Source: a virus. From it: a DNA stretch of 20,135 nt. The notes beneath the pieces were generated by a model. The model was not told the DNA's origin. It searched no databases and worked only from the letters and a program-made list of their open reading frames with translations. A program made the position numbers and the translations under genes. Below are positions 3,394 to 13,219 of the stretch, piece by piece. The stretch covers positions 1-20,135 of the IMG/VR virus record IMGVR_UViG_3300037635_001538, one strand, 5' to 3'. Position 1 is the first letter of the stretch, and every line of letters starts with the position of its first letter.

Positions 3394-4056
3394 TTAATTA
3401 TTTACTTTTGTTATTGTGATAGGAATAGTTACTCTAGCTCCACTGTCTCTACCTATTAAGGTCACTGTAGTTTGTAAAGTTGTTCTAGTAGTTCCAAATA
3501 AAGTATTCACTGTAGTTGCTGTCAAGTTAATTGACGTTCCTATTACTGTTTTAGAAACATTAGTTCCAATAGTTGAAGTTGTATTTAACTTTTCTGCTTC
3601 TTCAGAATTAACTCCTACTCCAGTAAAGTTAGATAATACTCTAGTATCAGCTACTGTTGCTGTATACCCTCCTGCTTCGAAAGTAGAAGTAGCTCCTAAA
3701 TAGTTTAATGTTTGAGGAGTAATCGCTAATGATGCTCCTTGTCGTAAACTTATAGATGCATATCCTGCTTCTAGTAAAGGTAGTTTAGATGTACCTCTTG
3801 GTAGAGTAGCAAGTTTGTATTTCATAACTTGAGTTTCATCTGGAAATGCTTCTAAGAGCGGCATGTTTTCAATTGCTTGTCCATAAAAAGCTGAACCTGA
3901 AGCATGATCTGGATTATATAGAGTGTAGTCTATTTCATCGTCTGCTAAAGCAAATTGTGTTATCTTAAAGGTTCCGTCTCCTTTTGCAAGAAGCTCTCTC
4001 CCTTTTTTTGTTAGAATTGCGTCGACTGTTACGACTGCATTGTTTAAATATCCCAT
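3394..4056 (-). CDS. Putative virion structural protein
   Basis: This 220-aa protein begins MGYLNNAVVTVDAILTKKGR, followed by ELLAKGDGTFKITQFALADD (residues 21-40). I recognise this start as a conserved phage virion family, usually annotated only as structural. The first 110 residues form a mixed alpha/beta head domain (LTKKGRELLAKG helix, then FKITQFALADDEIDYTLYN). The rest, from about residue 110, is Thr/Val-rich and looks like a beta-sandwich (TTRTTLQTTVTLIGR, then ARVTIPITITKV). That could be an Ig-like or fibre-type domain, although no defined family is assigned. It follows the giant repeat gene after a 41-nt gap, one of the two longest gaps between genes here. The ATG at 4056-4054 is the first in frame, and no Shine-Dalgarno precedes it. 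Confidence 0.8.
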   Translation of the reverse strand: MGYLNNAVVTVDAILTKKGRELLAKGDGTFKITQFALADDEIDYTLYNPDHASGSAFYGQAIENMPLLEAFPDETQVMKYKLATLPRGTSKLPLLEAGYASISLRQGASLAITPQTLNYLGATSTFEAGGYTATVADTRVLSNFTGVGVNSEEAEKLNTTSTIGTNVSKTVIGTSINLTATTVNTLFGTTRTTLQTTVTLIGRDSGARVTIPITITKVNN

Positions 4057-4097: not shown

Positions 4098-7000
4098 TTA
4101 AGGTACGTTCTTCGATGATGATAGTATAGTTACAAATGTTTTGTTAATTAATGTTGACCTACTATCAGAGAATATTGCATGTGTACCTCTAGTAGCATCT
4201 ATAATGTCTATTGCATAGCTAGTAGTAGAAGGTATAAACGAACCACTAATATCAATTACATCAGAAGTATTAGGTCTTAATTCTATAGGACCGATTAGTG
4301 TGTTATTTGACCCTGTATAGTAATAATAGAAGTCTTGAGTAGCTATAGTTTCTACCATTACATGAAAAACATTATCACCAGAAACTGCTCCTGGATTGGA
4401 GCCAGTTGGTTTAGGTTCGTAAAAAGCTTGATAATCTACTAGTTGTATTATATCGTCTGTACTCGGTAAGTAAAGTTTTGACTTAGTTAATCTTTTAAAG
4501 TTTTTTCCATCTAGTTCATATATTGGTTGTGCTCCAGGAGGTGTGTCTATTATACTTCCCTGTTGGTAAGCATCTAGACCAGTTCTAACGGTCACATAAG
4601 GAGGGTTGAAATAAAATGTTTCTATATCTAAATCAGAATAAGATTGGCTTCTTATATAACTTGAACTTTCTAATAAAGCAAATTTAGCTGCTTCGAATGG
4701 TTTGAATGTTAATGCAGGGTCGTTATAGAATAAACTTCCACTATCTAATTTTGTACCATCGTATCTTCCTGAAGTCCAAGTTTTAGAGTATAGGTTTGAT
4801 TCTTGGAATGAAGCAGTAACAGCTGATCCACTAATTACTGAATCAAGATTAGTAGGTTCGAGTTGACTTGCTCTTTTGTCTAATTCAAATACACCACCGA
4901 TTGTGCCATCTAAAGAACCAGTACCTTGAATTCTTCTCAGTTGCATTACGTTATTAAAAGCAGCATTATATTCACTAGTTCTAAAGTCTAATTCTTCTGG
5001 TTCAGGGTATAAAGTCGTAACAGTACATCCGTAAGAACTATCTGATGGTAGTAAACTCTCACATGGATAATCTGGATCATTAGACATTTCATAGTAGAAA
5101 GAGTCTCCTAAATCTATTCCTGGTCTTATTACTGTAAGAGAAGAAGCTCCTATATCTAATGAAGTTAAGTTTGCAATACTATCTATTCTATTTGTACCAG
5201 AACAATCTGCGGTACTTATATTAATGGCTCTAATCTTGTCACATTCTCCATCATCAGAAGAAGAGATGTGGTAAAGTATATCTCCGGCAGCTACGTTTAA
5301 GTTTTTAAACTCTGATACAGTCTTGTTAGAAATATAATCGCAGTCTGGTCTTTCTTGACCTGGTGCTGGAGGAGTGTCAGATACGCTTGGTGTTACACTC
5401 GGTGTATTAGATGGAGTGTTAGAAGGGGTATCAGAAGGAGTATTACTTGGAGTATTACTTGGAGTGTCAGATACGCTTGGAGTATTGCTCGCTGTATTAC
5501 TTGGTGTATTACTTGGAGTGTCTGATATACTCGGTGTATTGCTCGGTGTATTCGAGGGGGTATTACTTGGTGTATCAGATATACTCGGAGTGTTAGAAGG
5601 CGTATTTGAAGGTGTGTTAGAAGGCGTATCAGATATGCTTGGAGTATTACTTGGTGTATTACTTGGTGTATTACTTGGTGTATCAGATATGCTTGGAGTA
5701 TTACTTGGAGTATTACTTGGAGTATTACTTGGTGTATCAGAAATACTCGGAGTGTTCGAAGGTGTGTTCGAAGGTGTATTACTTGGTGTATCAGAAATAC
5801 TCGGAGTGTTCGAAGGTGTGTTCGAAGGTGTATTCGAAGGTGTATCAGAAATACTTGGCGTATTGCTAGGAGTATTTGAAGGAGTGTTACTCGGAGTATC
5901 AGAAATACTTGGTGTATTTGAAGGAGTATTACTCGGTGTGTTACTCGGAGTATCAGATACAGTTGGAGTATTTGAAGGTGTATTACTCGGTGTATTAGAC
6001 GGTGTATCAGAAACAGTTGGAGTGTTACTTGGTGTGTTAGATGGTGTATTACTTGGTGTATCGGATACAGTTGGAGTATTAGAAGGTGTATTGCTTGGTG
6101 TATTGCTTGGTGTATTACTCGGTGTATTAGAAGGTGTGCTAGATGGAGTGTTACTTGGGGATGCACAACCAACTGTTGTTTTAGCTATAACATCAGGAGC
6201 ATCAGTATCGTTTATTATTGTTACTGTATTACTTCCTGTACCGGAATATCTAGAAATATACAGAGTTGAAGCTGAAGATCCTGCAGCTGTTTGTATATCG
6301 GACCAAGTCCATTTAGTGCCTGTACTATTCTTATATAAAGTTTCTCCGGTTTCGATTGGTTGATCTGCATCAAAAATTGTTATATTTACTGAAGGTGTAC
6401 AGAAGCAAGCTCCATTTGCTGTTTCTGATAAGCAATATAAAGAGCCATCTAAAGGATCTGTTGTCGAAGGAGTTGGTGAATTACTTGGTGTATTAGATGG
6501 AGTATTAGACGGTGTATCTGATACAGTCGGAGTATTGCTTGGTGTATTACTCGGTGTATTAGATGGTGTGTCAGATACAGTCGGAGTATTGCTAGGTGTA
6601 TTTGAAGGTGTATTACTTGGTGTATTACTTGGAGAATTAGATGGTGTGTTACTTGCTGATAATGTTAAACATAATGTTAACGCAGCTGTTACTGCACCTC
6701 CAGAATTCACTGCAAAGAAATAAGTCCCTAATCCATCAGGTCCATTTCCTGACCATCCAAAGTACCCTCCACCGGATATAAATACACAGCTTGTATCTCT
6801 TAATGTGTCCCCAACTTCAGGGTAGCTCTCAGTATTACCGGTATCTTTATTTATGTAAACTACGTGAGCATAGTTACCGGAAATTACAGCTGAGCAAGCA
6901 TCATCGTCGGTTGAATCTGGTGTTGGAGTACCAGAAGTAGTTGAAAATACTCCTATTTGTACACCACAAGGTGATGTAGTTATAGATATTGATGGAGTAT

Positions 7001-8363
7001 TACTCGGTGTAGCACTATTTGTTGTACTCGGTGTTGGTGAATTACTCGGTGTATTAGATGGAGATCTTGATGGTGATGGAATAGGTGTGTTACTTGGAGT
7101 AGGTGTGTTACTTGGAGTATTACTTGCTGAAAGAGTTATACAGTCTGTTAAAGCTGTTTGTACTGCTCCTGCAGAATTTACTCCGAAGAAATAGTTTTTC
7201 AGTCCTGATCCTATATTTCCTGACCATCCAAAGTAACCTCCTCCAGATACGTTTTGACAATTTGATTTTCTTACTATATCTCCAACCTCAGGGTAATTTT
7301 CTGTATTACCTGAGTCTTTATCTAGGTAGACTGTGTGAGCATAATTACCTGAACTGACTGCTGCACAAGCTTCATCATCTGTATCATCAGGTGTTGGGGT
7401 GCCTAAAGTGCTTGAATATACTCCTATTTGTAAACCACATGGTGTTGAAGTGATAGAAGGAGTTGGTGTAGCAGTCTTCGTTGTAGAAGGAGTTGGTGTA
7501 TTACTCGGTGTATTTGATGGAGTATTAGACGGTGTATTTGATGGCGTATTACTTGGAGTATTAGATGGTGTATTACTTGGGGTAGGTGAATTACTTGGAG
7601 TATTAGACGCTGATAAAGTAATACAGTCTGCTAATCCAGCTGTTACTGCTCCTGAAGAATTCACTCCAAAGAAGTAAGTAGTTAGTCCTGCTGGTCCTAA
7701 TCCAGACCATCCAAAGTACCCTCCTCCGGATACATTTTGACAATTTGATTTCCTTACTATATCCCCTACCTGTGGGTAGTTTTCAGAATTACCTGAGTCT
7801 TTATCTAGATAAACCGTATGAGCATAGTTACCAGAAATTACTGATGAACAAGCTGTCTCTCCTGTTGAATCAGGTGTTGGTGTACCACTAGTTGATGAAA
7901 ATACTCCTATCTGTAATCCACATGGTGAAGATGTTACAGAAGGTGGTGGGGTATTACTCGGTGTGTTACTTGGTGTATTCGAAGGAGTATTACTCGGTGT
8001 GTTGCTCGGAGTATTAGATGGAGTATTACTTGGTGTATTCGAAGGGGTATCACTTATAGTAGGTGTTGGTGTTGGTGTTGGTGAAGCTGATGGAGGATAA
8101 GTAGTAGAGGAAGGGGTTGGTGTTGGAGTATTAGAAGGTGTTGCTGCTGCAGTACATTCTTCAAACTGATCTTCTATATCAACGTTTTCATTTAATCCTC
8201 CTACAGTAGAAGGTATAGTACCATCTTCAACACAAATAGTAGTGTTAGCGCCGGCAGCTAAACTAAAAGTTGTAGTAGCACCATCACAGATAGTATAACT
8301 GATATTGACTGTTCCCGAGTCGTTATTAGTTATTAAAAATTCACTACATGATCCAATTGGCAT
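4098..8363 (-). CDS. Giant modular fibre/adhesin-like tail protein with PSNTP repeats
   Basis: This 1421-aa protein is the largest here. Its layout is as follows. Residues 1-73 form a small Cys-containing N-terminal domain. Residues 74-147 are a Pro/Thr/Ser linker. Three homologous domains lie at 148-250, 308-411 and 466-568, each with four Cys at identical spacing (24, 36 and 39 residues) and a GGGYFGWSG core, separated by PSNTP linkers. Residues 640-733 hold a diverged domain ([10 protein letters not shown]). Residues 734-996 are a continuous PSNTP array with an 18-residue period. Residues 997-1421 form a C-terminal beta-rich domain with no repeats. It follows the gpI-like baseplate gene, where P2-type phages place tail fibre genes. 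A receptor-binding or virion-decoration role is inferred from layout and position; no enzyme motif is visible. It is flanked by the two longest intergenic gaps (46 and 41 nt), and there is no Shine-Dalgarno. The repeats create long open shadow frames that I do not count as genes. Confidence 0.85.
5374..6164 (-). repeat. Tandem PSNTP-coding array with 54-bp higher-order period
   Basis: About 790 bp encode residues 734-996 of the giant tail protein. The basic unit is four codons (Ser-Asn-Thr-Pro). A higher-order unit of 18 codons (54 bp) is marked by SISDTP or TVSDTP once per turn, followed by three SNTP units. I count three TVSDTP-type units (markers near 5955, 6009 and 6063), eight SISDTP-type units (near 5523 to 5901 at 54-bp steps), then SVSDTP units at the 3' end of the gene. 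The protein sequence is nearly invariant, but the codons vary between copies: Ser is written AGT, AGC, TCG, TCT and TCA at equivalent positions. Confidence 0.95.
6660..6968 (-). repeat. Third copy of four-cysteine domain repeat
   Basis: This encodes residues 466-568 of the giant protein. It is the most diverged of the three copies: [18 protein letters not shown] replaces [18 protein letters not shown], and AVNSGGAV replaces GVNSAGAV. Cysteines at 466, 490, 526 and 565 keep exactly the spacing of the other copies. Confidence 0.92.
7131..7442 (-). repeat. Second copy of four-cysteine domain repeat
   Basis: This encodes residues 308-411. It has cysteines at 309, 333, 369 and 408, and shares long identical runs with the first copy, such as [15 protein letters not shown] and [20 protein letters not shown]. 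It is followed by [11 protein letters not shown], as copy one is, so the repeat unit includes the start of the linker. Confidence 0.93.
7614..7922 (-). repeat. First copy of four-cysteine domain repeat
   Basis: This encodes residues 148-250, with cysteines at 148, 172, 208 and 247. The order of motifs is [10 protein letters not shown], then [54 protein letters not shown] and [11 protein letters not shown]. The even number of cysteines and fixed spacing suggest two disulfides or a metal site in a compact beta domain. I do not recognise a named family. Confidence 0.93.
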
Positions 8364-8409
8364 ACTCTACTTTATTATAATTAGTTTCTTATTCAAATTT
8401 TACTTTTTA

Positions 8410-11400
8410 CTAACATCCTTCATCTCCACAATCATAATACTGTGTCACTACTCCTCCGGAAGTTGTTTCCAGAACGCTAAATGTATATGGTCCAGTTGTT
8501 CCGGTATCACCAAATTGAGAACCATTATTATTCACTGTTACATTAAGTATATAGAATTCACCAGAGAATCTAGGGCTACTAAGTGTTCCTACTTGATTGT
8601 CTAGTGCGGTACTATTATTATATATTACGTCTCCTACAGCAGGGAATATTCTAATATCACCAGAAGGTTTGTAGAACCACATTGTTCTTATTGTCCCTGT
8701 ATGTCCTCCGGTGCAAGCATCGCATACAGTTGCGTAATATGCTCCATCAAACGACTGTACTACTAGGGAGTTAGAAGGTGTCGGTGAAATAGACGGTGTA
8801 TTAGACGGTGAAATAGACGGTGTCGGTGTATTACTTGGTGTATTAGATGGAGTATTAGAAGGTGAAGGCGGTATTACATAGAAACAATACTTCTTACCTC
8901 TATACTGAACTCCACCTGGATTGTTATATTTCCAGTCGTTATCGTCATTTAATGAGTGTTGATAAACATCAAAGTTACTACCACTAAATTCTCCATCATA
9001 TCTAGTTCTTTCTTTTTCGTGGTAAAAATATTCAGCAGGTCCAATTGGTGTTATAATACTTTCAGAGTAACTTGCTGTTAAAGGTATAGTTAATTCATCG
9101 TGTAGTTTATTAGTAAAGGCTGAGCCATCACTACCTGAAGAAAAAGCTGTGTTGATTTCGGTTAAGTAGCTTGATGTTAAAAAGCTTCCTTCTACTTGTT
9201 TTATTTTATTTCTCTCTAATAAATGAGGTTTTATGATAAGTCCTGTATCGATATTAGATCTTGCTGGAACAAAATCTTTAATCATTTTAAATAGAACGTT
9301 ATCGTAATATCTTAAGTACCTTACGAGTTCACCGTAATTGTGGCTTCTTTCAGCAACGTTAAGTACTGCTGATTGACTTATCAATCCAGAATAACTTGAA
9401 GAGTAGGCAAGCCTAGGATCACCTATTATATTGTCTATATTGAAGTCTGCACTTGATGATGCTATGATAGCTTCGTTATAAGCGTCTGTAGGAGCATACC
9501 CAACTTCAATAGTATGTATGTCATCTGTATATTGATCATCTCTGGACATAATAGAACTGTACCTAGATAATGTACTTCCGGTAACTATGCTACCTGTATT
9601 ATCTATTCTTATTCTGTCTAAAGATGAGGTTATATTAACTGATGGTCCAAAATAAGGAGTAGCATTTCTATCTGCTCCACCTATAACTCTTACTTTAAGT
9701 CCTGATATATTTTGTTTATCTGACCCTGTTATATGTGATATATTATTTTCTGTAGGTACTCCAAAAGAAGCTATAAGAGCTTTTAATCCTCTTTCAGTAC
9801 CTTTAGTTTTAAGTAGATAAGGTAGGTTGTGATAGATTCTTTTGTTTATATCTCTTTTATAATCTTCTAATGAGTCAGAATTAATCAAACCTTCAGAGCC
9901 TGATACTGAGTATATTCCGTTATTAGAAGCACTAACTAAAGAAGCTATAATATTAGATCCAGACTGTTCAAATGCAGTACTTCCGGAACTATATAACTTT
10001 CCTGTAAAGGTGTTGAATAAATCTTCAGTTGATTGAAAGCTATTGTATATTGTTATACCAAAGTTCTTTAATGTATCTTGAACTAAGTCTTTTGAAATAC
10101 CGTAATCTATTCGGTTATCATTATCGTATTTGTCTGATAGAGCTTTTGTATATACCCATATGTTATCAAAATGCTGCCCTAGCATGTGAGTAAAAATAGA
10201 ATACTTTACACTATCTGTATCTTCTCTAAGGTAGTCTGGAACTGTATTGATAAGAGATGAATTATTACTAGTATCATAGTTGCTTGCTGAAAGCAGCATG
10301 CCTGTTATAAACGACCCTGTTATAGATCCAGTTGTAGCATTAATGTAGGGTTTGTTGTATGGAGCTAGTTTAGGCCAAGAAGTAGACCCACTATCGAAGT
10401 ATAGATGTCTATCGTAGTGATCAAAATTCTGTATTATGCCGTTTAGTTTATCAGTCCAGTAAGTTGTACTGCCACTAGTGTTTGCAAAGCTACTAGCTAA
10501 AGAAGAACTATCTATATTTTTTTGATATGATTCTATAAGGTTTAGTTTATACTGAAAGTTTCTTAATCTTTCTTCAGCAGAACTAAATTGGATGAATTCT
10601 TCGTAGTTACTGTAATCAAAGCTTAATTCTATTCCTTTCTCTTTAAATAAACTATTAACCTGTCTATAGGTATTATTAGTTGGAAATGAAAATAACTCGT
10701 CTGAGCTTAGAAAAGAAGTAGGGTAAGAGACACTGTCAGGTTCCCCTATACTAAAGTTAGGTCCTTTTAATGTAGGTGGTTTAACTATATCGGGTGTAAC
10801 TGTAGTATCTACTTCATACCCGGCACTATCGGACACTATTCTATCGATAGTCAGTAGCTGCTTTAATTGGTACTTAATAGGAAGAGCTTCGTATAATTTT
10901 ACTACAACAGATTTATACTCTCTATAATCTTGTATTTTTATATTTATACCTATAAGTAGGTCATTATCTTTTACGTTTAATCTAAAATCATTGAAGAAGG
11001 AATCAGAGCTTAGGTCTTCTTCTATAGCTTCTGTATAATCAACTATATCTTCTTCTGTAATTTGATTTGATAATAACCTAATTTCAGTTCTATCTTCTGA
11101 TATCTCTTCTATGAAGAACTCTCCACCTGCTTGATTTTCAGAGTATAAATTGTCTAAAAAATTGTATACTAACTTGACACCGCCTAATTCATAACTAAGA
11201 TCAATAGCATCTTGAATAGGGTCTAAAGTTACTTCTGAAGCTCCTGTAGTACCTACTGTTTCACTTCCTTGTAAAAATTTAAAGTTCCTATGGTCGTATT
11301 TAGAGTCTAATAGTACATTGTCTGTACCGTAAACGTGAAGTTCAACCTTATCTTCATAAGGAGTAAAATTAGTATTGATAGAAAACTTTTCAATAGTTTT

Positions 11401-11472
11401 TAAGTCAAACTCTGATATTTGTTCTAACCCTATTGGGTTTACTTGAAACAATTTGTAGTCTATACTTGCCAT
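8410..11472 (-). CDS. Baseplate protein with P2 gpI-like segment and C-terminal displayed domain
   Basis: This 1020-aa protein follows gp6/J after two intervening genes. A segment at about residues 543-572 (YHNLPYLLKTKGTERGLKAL, then IASFGVPTEN) resembles the LPYLLKxKGTxRG motif of P2 gpI-like tail proteins, which act as the gp7-type wedge component linking J/gp6 to the tail fibres. The N-terminal 250 residues are acidic and carry alternating strands (EFFIEEISEDRTEIRLLSNQ). The middle holds Ser/Tyr-rich structural sequence. Residues about 867-902 form a Pro/Ser/Thr linker ([20 protein letters not shown]) like those of the downstream giant protein. The linker leads to a roughly 118-residue C-terminal domain with VGDVIYNNST and two cysteine clusters (CDAC near its start, DCGDEGC at the end). 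So a wedge-like body appears fused to a displayed domain. The gp7/gpI role is inferred from motif plus position. Confidence 0.82.
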   Translation of the reverse strand: MASIDYKLFQVNPIGLEQISEFDLKTIEKFSINTNFTPYEDKVELHVYGTDNVLLDSKYDHRNFKFLQGSETVGTTGASEVTLDPIQDAIDLSYELGGVKLVYNFLDNLYSENQAGGEFFIEEISEDRTEIRLLSNQITEEDIVDYTEAIEEDLSSDSFFNDFRLNVKDNDLLIGINIKIQDYREYKSVVVKLYEALPIKYQLKQLLTIDRIVSDSAGYEVDTTVTPDIVKPPTLKGPNFSIGEPDSVSYPTSFLSSDELFSFPTNNTYRQVNSLFKEKGIELSFDYSNYEEFIQFSSAEERLRNFQYKLNLIESYQKNIDSSSLASSFANTSGSTTYWTDKLNGIIQNFDHYDRHLYFDSGSTSWPKLAPYNKPYINATTGSITGSFITGMLLSASNYDTSNNSSLINTVPDYLREDTDSVKYSIFTHMLGQHFDNIWVYTKALSDKYDNDNRIDYGISKDLVQDTLKNFGITIYNSFQSTEDLFNTFTGKLYSSGSTAFEQSGSNIIASLVSASNNGIYSVSGSEGLINSDSLEDYKRDINKRIYHNLPYLLKTKGTERGLKALIASFGVPTENNISHITGSDKQNISGLKVRVIGGADRNATPYFGPSVNITSSLDRIRIDNTGSIVTGSTLSRYSSIMSRDDQYTDDIHTIEVGYAPTDAYNEAIIASSSADFNIDNIIGDPRLAYSSSYSGLISQSAVLNVAERSHNYGELVRYLRYYDNVLFKMIKDFVPARSNIDTGLIIKPHLLERNKIKQVEGSFLTSSYLTEINTAFSSGSDGSAFTNKLHDELTIPLTASYSESIITPIGPAEYFYHEKERTRYDGEFSGSNFDVYQHSLNDDNDWKYNNPGGVQYRGKKYCFYVIPPSPSNTPSNTPSNTPTPSISPSNTPSISPTPSNSLVVQSFDGAYYATVCDACTGGHTGTIRTMWFYKPSGDIRIFPAVGDVIYNNSTALDNQVGTLSSPRFSGEFYILNVTVNNNGSQFGDTGTTGPYTFSVLETTSGGVVTQYYDCGDEGC
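8770..8872 (-). repeat. PSNTP/PSISP linker repeat in the baseplate protein
   Basis: This short tract encodes about 34 residues of SNTP and SISP units ([18 protein letters not shown], then [16 protein letters not shown]). It is the same low-complexity type as the linkers in the adjacent giant tail gene and lies directly ahead of the C-terminal cysteine domain. Two neighbouring genes therefore share homologous repeat DNA. Confidence 0.9.
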
Positions 11473-11475
11473 CTG

Positions 11476-12105
11476 TTATATTACTCTAGCTATATGAGCT
11501 TTACTAGCTCCAAATTCAGTCAAAGCTACTTTAATTTCTAATCTTGTTTTACCTAATTTTTTTAATCTTAAACCTTCTGCGGCTACTTCTTGAAATCTTC
11601 TTTTTCTTTTAGTAGAAAAATCTTTTGCTATATCAGATGCAGGTTCTTCTCTGAGTACTGGTTTTACAGCAGGTTTGTTGTCTAGATCTATTTGTTCAGA
11701 TGATCTATTTATTCTATCTTGTAATCCTTTCAGTCCTCCTTCAAGATCAATATTTTCTGAGTTACCTATAGATTTAAGTATATCATTTTCAGTTTCTATA
11801 GCATCTGCATTTTGTTCTAATAGTCTTTTTCTAAGATCAGATATTTCATCTAATAAAGGTTGAATTGCTTCATCGTTTCGTTCGAAGTCTACTAATTTAG
11901 AACTTTCTTTTATGAGAAATTCATGTGAGTTAAATTCACCTTCTGGTTCTATATCGTAATATAGTTTATTATATAATCTAAAGAACTCTTCTATAGTATC
12001 ATTATCCACTTCTACAGTATCAACAAATGATTTAAACGAGGTATCAATCGATTTATCGAATTGATCCTTTTTCAATACAGTTCTTGATAACCTTATATTA
12101 GCCAT
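11476..12105 (-). CDS. Putative baseplate-associated coiled-coil protein
   Basis: This 209-aa charged protein is mostly helical. Residues 80-112 (IQPLLDEISDLRKRLLEQNA, then DAIETENDILKSI) have heptad-like hydrophobic spacing, and 119-140 (IDLEGGLKGLQDRINRSSEQ) continues it. A basic patch, STKRKRRFQEV, is at 164-174. The C-terminal 35 residues (LRLKKLGKTRLEIKVALTEF, then GASKAHIARVI) look like a small helical tail domain. I do not recognise the family. Its position between gp6/J-side genes and the gpI-like protein, with an 8-nt overlap upstream and a 3-nt gap downstream, suggests a baseplate assembly or structural role. It is not an enzyme as far as can be seen. Confidence 0.78.
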   Translation of the reverse strand: MANIRLSRTVLKKDQFDKSIDTSFKSFVDTVEVDNDTIEEFFRLYNKLYYDIEPEGEFNSHEFLIKESSKLVDFERNDEAIQPLLDEISDLRKRLLEQNADAIETENDILKSIGNSENIDLEGGLKGLQDRINRSSEQIDLDNKPAVKPVLREEPASDIAKDFSTKRKRRFQEVAAEGLRLKKLGKTRLEIKVALTEFGASKAHIARVI

Positions 12106-13219
12106 TTCTTACAATTTTAAATACGTTATCGTTATCAAATGTACATGTATTGCCGTCTATTTCAGATCTAACTAATATTCTGTAGTATCTTTCTGGTTGT
12201 AATCCATTCATATATAAGTCAAAATACGGTCCAGAACTATCACAGCTAATTTTACTGTAGCTAGAATTGAACGGTATTACTAAGTCTTCTGTAAATTCAT
12301 CTTTCAACGCATAAACAGAACCGCTATTTAAAGCATAATTAGTTTTATATATACTTCCTGTAGTAAAAGTTCTTGTTGGATATTTAGGTCTTGCATGAAG
12401 TCTAAACCTCTGTTTACCTGTATCTGGGTATTCACCGCTATTGTTAGTGATAATAACATGAGATGTAGGATTAGATAGTACGCTAAGGCTTCCTGTAGAG
12501 TAGCTTTGATCGTCCCAGGTAAAGGTTAATGATGGTGGGTATATAGTATTAGTATTAGCACTATAGAATTTATGTCTTACTGAAGATGAAAGGTTAAATT
12601 CTATGCTATCATGAAACTTTAGTATAAACCCGTTGTTAGTTAACGTACCACTGTAGTGCATATGAACAGCGTTCGTAACATCCATAAATACATCTACATC
12701 ATCATTAGTTTCATAACTTTGAGTTGACTCTAGGTTGACACCAGCTGAACCTGTATACCAGTTACCTCCGCCGGGGTATTTAACATTGTGAGAGCCTGTG
12801 GTTAAAGCAGTAAATGTAGGTGAAGTTTGCCAAGGTACTTGTGAGTTATTTTTAGTATACTTCCAAGATACTCCTGATTTATCAGCAGATCCGGTATTAA
12901 GATCATCTCCGTATTTACCTATACCTCCATCCCAATAAGTACTAACGGGGTAGCACTCTATTGAATGAGATACCGGTGTTTCATAAGCAGAAGCTATAAA
13001 CATTTCTATACTTGAAGTCCAGACATTAGCACCAATCTTATTAGATATTACATCTGTTATTTCACTATCTTTGAAATGTATCAATGTTCTTGAGGCTTGA
13101 CCTATTTCTTGTATCGGATAACCTCCTATCTCTAACATCTCATCATAACCAGCATTACCGGTTACTACTTCTGTAAAGATAAATGAGTCTTTATCGGGAA
13201 AAATTTTATATACTGCCAT
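12098..13219 (-). CDS. Beta-rich baseplate/appendage protein with DNRLRE-like domain
   Basis: This 373-aa protein begins MAVYKIFPDKDSFIFTEVVT. Residues 1-235 follow the pattern of DNRLRE/CBM96-type beta-sandwich domains: a 'D..I' opening strand, ASRTLIHF (42-49), WTSSIEMFIAS (67-77), IECYPVSTYWDGG (87-99), SGVSWKY (115-121), VDVFMDVTNAVHMHYSGTLT (175-194) and NNGFILKF (195-202). These domains bind or scaffold on polysaccharide in other proteins. The second part (about 236-373) is another beta-rich region (RFRLHARPKYPTRTF, then YFDLYMNGLQPERYYRILVR). The gene starts 1 nt past the gp6 stop and overlaps the next gene by 8 nt. A surface baseplate or appendage protein is likely. The DNRLRE call is by pattern only, without a profile search. 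Confidence 0.78.
   Translation of the reverse strand: MAVYKIFPDKDSFIFTEVVTGNAGYDEMLEIGGYPIQEIGQASRTLIHFKDSEITDVISNKIGANVWTSSIEMFIASAYETPVSHSIECYPVSTYWDGGIGKYGDDLNTGSADKSGVSWKYTKNNSQVPWQTSPTFTALTTGSHNVKYPGGGNWYTGSAGVNLESTQSYETNDDVDVFMDVTNAVHMHYSGTLTNNGFILKFHDSIEFNLSSSVRHKFYSANTNTIYPPSLTFTWDDQSYSTGSLSVLSNPTSHVIITNNSGEYPDTGKQRFRLHARPKYPTRTFTTGSIYKTNYALNSGSVYALKDEFTEDLVIPFNSSYSKISCDSSGPYFDLYMNGLQPERYYRILVRSEIDGNTCTFDNDNVFKIVRNG

Follow-up and report, generated by a model that had tools for sequence, protein, structure and literature searches.

Stalked, cysteine-bracketed domains at the facing ends of two baseplate-adjacent phage proteins: candidate parts for host recognition

The virus record IMGVR_UViG_3300037635_001538 is a 20-kb fragment of 20,135 nt, analyzed here in full and referred to as the window; its phage probably infects a Flavobacterium-like host. 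We describe two adjacent tail-type genes on the minus strand, encoding proteins of 1020 and 1421 amino acids (aa), that carry small domains on low-complexity stalks. The 1020-aa gene lies at 11472-8410 and the 1421-aa gene at 8363-4098, 46 nt downstream on the same strand (gap, 8364-8409). Both open reading frames (ORFs) were confirmed at these positions, where a first-pass annotation, made from the sequence, had placed them. That annotation also called the 1020-aa protein a baseplate protein, a label that holds by synteny with the gp25 and Baseplate_J genes and not by family, as family searches with this protein returned no match.

The two proteins can be rationalized into conserved and variable regions, all on the minus strand. 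The 1020-aa protein begins with a conserved core (aa 1-867; 8872-11472), baseplate-associated by synteny, which is followed by a short C-terminal stalk of PSNTP/SPTPS type, 35 aa long (aa 868-902; 8767-8871), and by a terminal, cysteine-bracketed domain, E (aa 903-1020; 8410-8766), much as the annotation had described a PSNTP-type linker before a terminal domain. The 1421-aa protein starts with an N-domain (aa 1-72; 8148-8363) and contains five stalks rich in P, S, T, and N: stalk 1 (aa 73-146; 7926-8147) precedes domain D1 (aa 147-253; 7605-7925), stalk 2 (aa 254-307; 7443-7604) precedes D2 (aa 308-414; 7122-7442), stalk 3 (aa 415-464; 6972-7121) precedes D3 (aa 465-571; 6651-6971), and stalk 4 (aa 572-635; 6459-6650) precedes D4 (aa 636-734; 6162-6458). 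A long stalk 5 built of 18-aa units (aa 735-1001; 5361-6161) leads to a conserved C-terminal anchor (aa 1002-1421; 4098-5360). The N-domain is 35% identical to that of the nearest relative, locus L004 (E = 1e-8), with a further weak match to the tip of L047 (E = 0.04).

D1, D2, and D3 are copies of a ~105-aa domain, 70-79% identical in protein. Their cysteines fall at positions 148/172/208/247, 309/333/369/408, and 466/490/526/565, and the spacing of 24, 36, and 39 is identical in all three, exactly as first noticed. The four-cysteine pattern is a trait of the window’s copies; family-wide, D keeps only its second and fourth cysteines. Relatives were not found by searches with a single D sequence or with the three copies and emerged only when a profile included relatives; this D-family profile retrieved 16 loci, giving 19 distinct D sequences in all. 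A search for D in bacterial genomes, plasmids, and a phage collection recovered no relative, and neither D (17 members scanned) nor D4 matched a Pfam family.

D4, which had been read as a diverged fourth copy, is a sequence family of its own, with DPLD at its start and cysteines at 644/653/655/733, a spacing unlike that of D. What it shares with D is the predicted order of secondary structure. AlphaFold models D3 with a predicted local distance difference test (pLDDT) score of about 92 and D4 at about 85-91, both in a β-α-β then β-β-β order, with one cysteine in the first helix and one directly after the last strand, a pair that might form a disulfide; the stalk between D3 and D4 is disordered in the model and the domains are confident. 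A direct profile comparison of D and D4 did not score above column-shuffled decoys, although each matches a third family from the relatives, termed S (17 members), above 60 of 60 decoys. As the shared predicted order and the bridge through S are the sole links between them, we regard D4 as probably of the same broad class as D.

Domain E has cysteines at 917/920/1015/1020 and does not share the D spacing. Its kinship to D is only suggestive: BLAST gave E = 0.003 within a tiny sequence set, and one of 60 column-shuffled decoys equaled the direct D-E profile score, with E above the other 59. Against the S family, E scored above all 60 decoys. Structure prediction, drawing on few relatives, reached a pLDDT of 36 and yielded no usable model, and a scan for E identified a single other member, on the 1020-aa-type gene of L004. 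E is possibly of the same broad class as D. The initial suggestion that both proteins display one class of domain is, in this light, probable for D4 and only suggestive for E.

The conserved parts of the two proteins have clear counterparts. A search with the core found L004 and, among cultured phages, Flavobacterium phage immuto, and a profile of the neighboring 220-aa gene fetched 80 more loci. The core is 78% identical to that of L004 and 43% identical over 857 aa to immuto gp109; the anchor matches immuto at E of about 1e-7 by BLAST and at 6e-77 with a family hidden Markov model (HMM) that includes the anchor. The gene order gp25 - Baseplate_J - 373 aa - 209 aa - core - anchor - 220 aa is kept in L004 and, in outline, in immuto, and both homology and order hold across immuto gp113-gp105. 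Orthologues of the 1421-aa protein have the C-terminus in common; stand-alone versions of 300-435 aa, including immuto gp108, consist of this part and lack a stalk, and the stalked N-terminal extension of ~1000-1370 aa occurs in the window and L004 only. The 1020-aa protein, reciprocally, shares its N-terminus with its orthologues and varies at the tip: among 69 pairs whose cores reach 50% identity, 13 have tips that are each at least 60 aa long and show no detectable similarity to one another (e.g., immuto and L025, core 64%). The display parts are therefore located at the facing ends of two adjacent genes.

In at least 10 relatives (L038, L052, L053, L061, L066, L069, L075, L076, L082, and L085), core and anchor form one ORF, in that order. 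In L010, L020, and L036, a whole gene separates the two, and those of L010 and L036 have a stalk. By this comparison, the window’s two genes match the two parts of a protein that these fused relatives make as a single chain, with display sequence at the split, and the junction is a place where display parts are added. A more tentative proposal, to which we give less than even odds, is a dedicated grafting site, where an ancestral fused baseplate protein was cut and unrelated stalked modules were repeatedly inserted beside or between the halves. Such modules would include D/D4 arrays, S-type domains, a lectin-like gene, and a HINT-bearing gene, with docking kept and display changed.

The genes found at the junction are themselves diverse. 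The stalked gene of L036 (7234-8829) has a HINT/intein-like end (PF07591, 1.2e-4, under the curated cut-off), and that of L010 (7836-8813) combines an S-type domain with a Peptidase_C39-like match (PF13529, 1.8e-5) lying partly over the stalk. In L020, the C-terminus of a 329-aa junction gene (7760-8749) resembles a lectin-type (DUF1566-like) domain, by eye only.

D and D4 are not confined to this pair of genes. The anchor gene carries D in the window and L004; L009, L089, and L091 have a single D on each of two genes, one of 213 aa located upstream of the core and the other a downstream fiber gene; and D is also found on fiber genes of L052, L088, L098, and L100, in the order D-D4-D in L088 and D4-D4-D in L098/L100. 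The first-pass idea of a modular display is borne out by this recurrence of both domains on other tail genes, in different number and order. Along the stalked protein, the window and L004 share one order of parts (N-domain, D array, D4, long stalk, anchor), with three D in the window and two D plus a VWA domain in L004 (12863-13511; PF00092, 1.3e-12), the latter lying after the D array and before D4. D copies cluster by genome, with modest support. Synonymous divergence (dS) between D paralogs is 0.63-0.88 within the window and 0.60 within L004, compared with ~1.2-1.7 for Baseplate_J and the core and 0.57 for the 220-aa gene between the two genomes; duplication after the window/L004 split, or replacement, is the likely history of the copies, its timing rough because dS is near saturation. 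Tandem arrangement takes other forms in the clade; for instance, a 1063-aa fiber gene of L010 (11669-14860) alternates two kinds of domain (ABAB) on TPTP stalks.

We propose, with a probability of about 0.72, that these are stalked display parts on baseplate-adjacent proteins, used for host recognition, whose domain sets change slowly. Both proteins would be virion components of a myovirus-like relative of immuto, located beside the baseplate wedge and docked on the particle through the N-terminal core of the 1020-aa protein and the C-terminal anchor of the 1421-aa protein. At the facing ends, optional display parts would extend outward, with disordered P/S/T/N stalks holding three D, D4, E, and the N-domain off the particle, and the cysteine-bracketed domains would most likely bind host surface glycans or proteins. 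The split point, where core and anchor are fused in other lineages, would serve as the graft site. Domain sets would be altered slowly and lineage by lineage, as domains are duplicated, lost, inserted, or replaced, perhaps helped by ordinary phage recombination; terminal domains change fastest in alignable relatives.

How fast the display changes separates this proposal from one in which a dedicated, rapid recombination system swaps stalk and domain repeat DNA between the two genes within populations to generate receptor-binding variants. The homologous repeat DNA invoked for such exchange does exist: tandem repeats with periods of 12, 54, and ~483 bp score far over threshold and correspond to the stalk and domain repeats, and the 1421-aa gene has an internal exact repeat of 59 bp. 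It is, however, thin between genes, as the longest exact match between the 1421-aa gene and the stalk/tip of the 1020-aa gene spans 30 bp, within the stalk, and E and D have common DNA runs of only 8-10 bp. The stalk units are 95% identical in protein and 47% in codons, against 43% expected from codon usage, and are close to synonymous saturation, with only two adjacent unit pairs (0.89) that look recent. Stalk DNA gives little homology for recombination, and the stalk is held by protein-level selection, since protein identity is high and codon identity near random. D1-D3 are 73-78% identical in DNA, with longest exact runs of 20-21 bp and no recent conversion tract. When contigs of one virus came from separate samples, they were 99.3-99.99% identical across fiber genes with arrays unchanged. 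Two more distant pairs, L089/L091 and L098/L100, retain their folded domains in the same number and order; what changes is mainly the length of the stalk, short repeats, and the terminal domain, whose nonsynonymous divergence (dN) is 0.47 and 0.25, respectively, compared with 0.05-0.06 for D. Rapid recombination finds some support in how L089 and L091 differ in stalk length and short repeats; a short unit along their stalks (LDCSFEIxVDDEPAPT) differs in copy number between L089 (16468-19341) and L091 (16758-19550). Exchange between the 1020-aa and 1421-aa genes was not seen, as E was found only in the window and L004, on the 1020-aa-type gene in both. Rapid exchange is, in our judgment, improbable, and the first-pass suggestion that active exchange generates diversity is not supported; fixed domain number and order among close relatives, which it had named as the observation that would count against it, is found at short range and breaks down at the distance of L004. 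Slow modular evolution is supported, and fast programmed variation is not.

A different objection is that the domains are structural spacers or decorations that stabilize the particle, with stalks providing reach or bulk. The strong protein-level constraint on the stalks would suit such a role, as would a fold search against the PDB without a clear match (best Z 3.9) or known binding fold, but a passive role fits poorly with domains that evolve much faster than the cores (window versus L004, dN 0.49-0.86 for E, D4, N-domain, and D and 0.08-0.15 for Baseplate_J and the core), the terminal ones fastest in the two pairs above. Domain sets also vary among relatives and are grafted on genes in the fiber position, for which host contact is the better fit, and we consider this reading unlikely, if the most serious of the rivals. 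A surface coat acting as a decoy or bearing enzymes is the least probable of all; the VWA domain of L004 and the HINT-like domain on the stalked junction gene of L036 could be taken to favor it, but the window’s display parts have no catalytic family matches. VWA is, moreover, a common adhesion domain. Several points weigh against host recognition by a slowly changing display. The fold search turned up no binding fold that is known, so adhesion, and with it the ligand, is inferred. Fiber genes could lie outside the 20-kb record, and when 45 loci were compared, display length showed no trade-off with downstream fiber-gene length (rho -0.19, p 0.22). The close pairs come from elsewhere in the clade; the window itself has a single near relative, L004. 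The duplication dates share the roughness noted above.

Among known systems, the nearest occurs in crAss-like and other gut phages: tail-associated tandem arrays of BACON domains, which arose by lineage-specific duplication and horizontal transfer of single domains, with domain order conserved in one lineage (PMC6949934). In both cases, Bacteroidota phages carry small domains in tandem on tail-associated proteins: here, D1-D3 follow one another in a gene that shares synteny with the baseplate genes, the copies cluster by genome (modest support), and D and D4 occur on several genes. In contrast to BACON, a PF13004 match is absent from both proteins and 17 D members, and D, D4, and E match no Pfam model; the predicted D/D4 fold includes a helix, the P/S/T/N stalks are long, and the display lies at the core/anchor split. 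Along the same lines, host-recognition modules move between phages in T4-type adhesin exchange. Tail-fiber module exchange is also reported between distantly related phages, such as Alteromonas phages (PMC10579305), and the resemblance is that recognition modules move and docking parts stay. Here, the docking parts are instead of baseplate type and small stalked domains change, with no homology to those fibers found and no specific search made for it. Ig-like domains, too, have been added promiscuously to several phage structural genes (cited in PMC6949934), and the likeness is again one of small domains added to several such genes; the present domains, however, have no Pfam Ig match, a predicted β-α-β…β-β-β order with a helix, and no clear match in the fold search.

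Two further comparisons are looser. MSCRAMM Sdr adhesins also present binding domains on low-complexity, Ser-rich stalks, an analogy and not kinship, as the NCBIfam SdrC/SdrD models align with the stalk alone and score far below their cut-offs (46.9 of 2500 and 40.5 of 1700 bits). Diversity-generating retroelements would likewise vary phage receptor binding; no reverse transcriptase was found in eight long relatives or among the scanned ORFs of the window, a 20-kb fragment. A RecA-like gene, in keeping with recombination as the putative route of change, is present in seven of the eight long relatives. A literature search on P/T-rich phage stalks found nothing relevant.

The system thus belongs with a known kind, modular tail adhesins such as the BACON arrays. 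What is new here is the D and D4 families, a putative graft site at the junction, and stalked display where the two parts of a split baseplate protein face each other. Receptor-binding parts of uncultured Bacteroidota phages are mostly unannotated. The two genes supply a recognizable architecture (docking part, P/S/T/N stalk, cysteine-bracketed small domain), two domain families absent from Pfam naming, and a fixed genome place, the core/anchor interval, in which to seek such parts, and the cultured relative immuto allows tests. They also separate slow modular evolution from fast programmed variation. A BFVD fold search retrieved one protein of an uncultured phage with no assigned function (A0A6J7WGP7, E = 2.5e-5).

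Other features of the window can be described briefly. The 220-aa neighbor gene (3394-4056, minus strand) is conserved, 95% identical to its counterpart in L004 and 78% to immuto gp107. The 373-aa baseplate neighbor (12098-13219) has a weak match to a DNRLRE-domain model (NF033679, 5.7e-5, below the cut-off). A scan for promoters and terminators stayed at chance level. At 951-2384, a 317-aa gene is followed after about 4 nt by a SegE-type GIY-YIG gene; in immuto, 7.4 kb with tail fiber and spike genes separate the counterparts of these two genes, and among measurable split-anchor relatives, fiber genes at this interval are missing only from the window and L004. The idea that the display had moved from the missing fiber genes was dropped, as other lineages also lack fibers there and no overall trade-off was seen. 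The PHROG 447 label ‘NAD synthetase’ at 951-1427, also present in the immuto record, looks wrong, and the SegE GIY-YIG model matches instead (PF19835, 2.8e-25).

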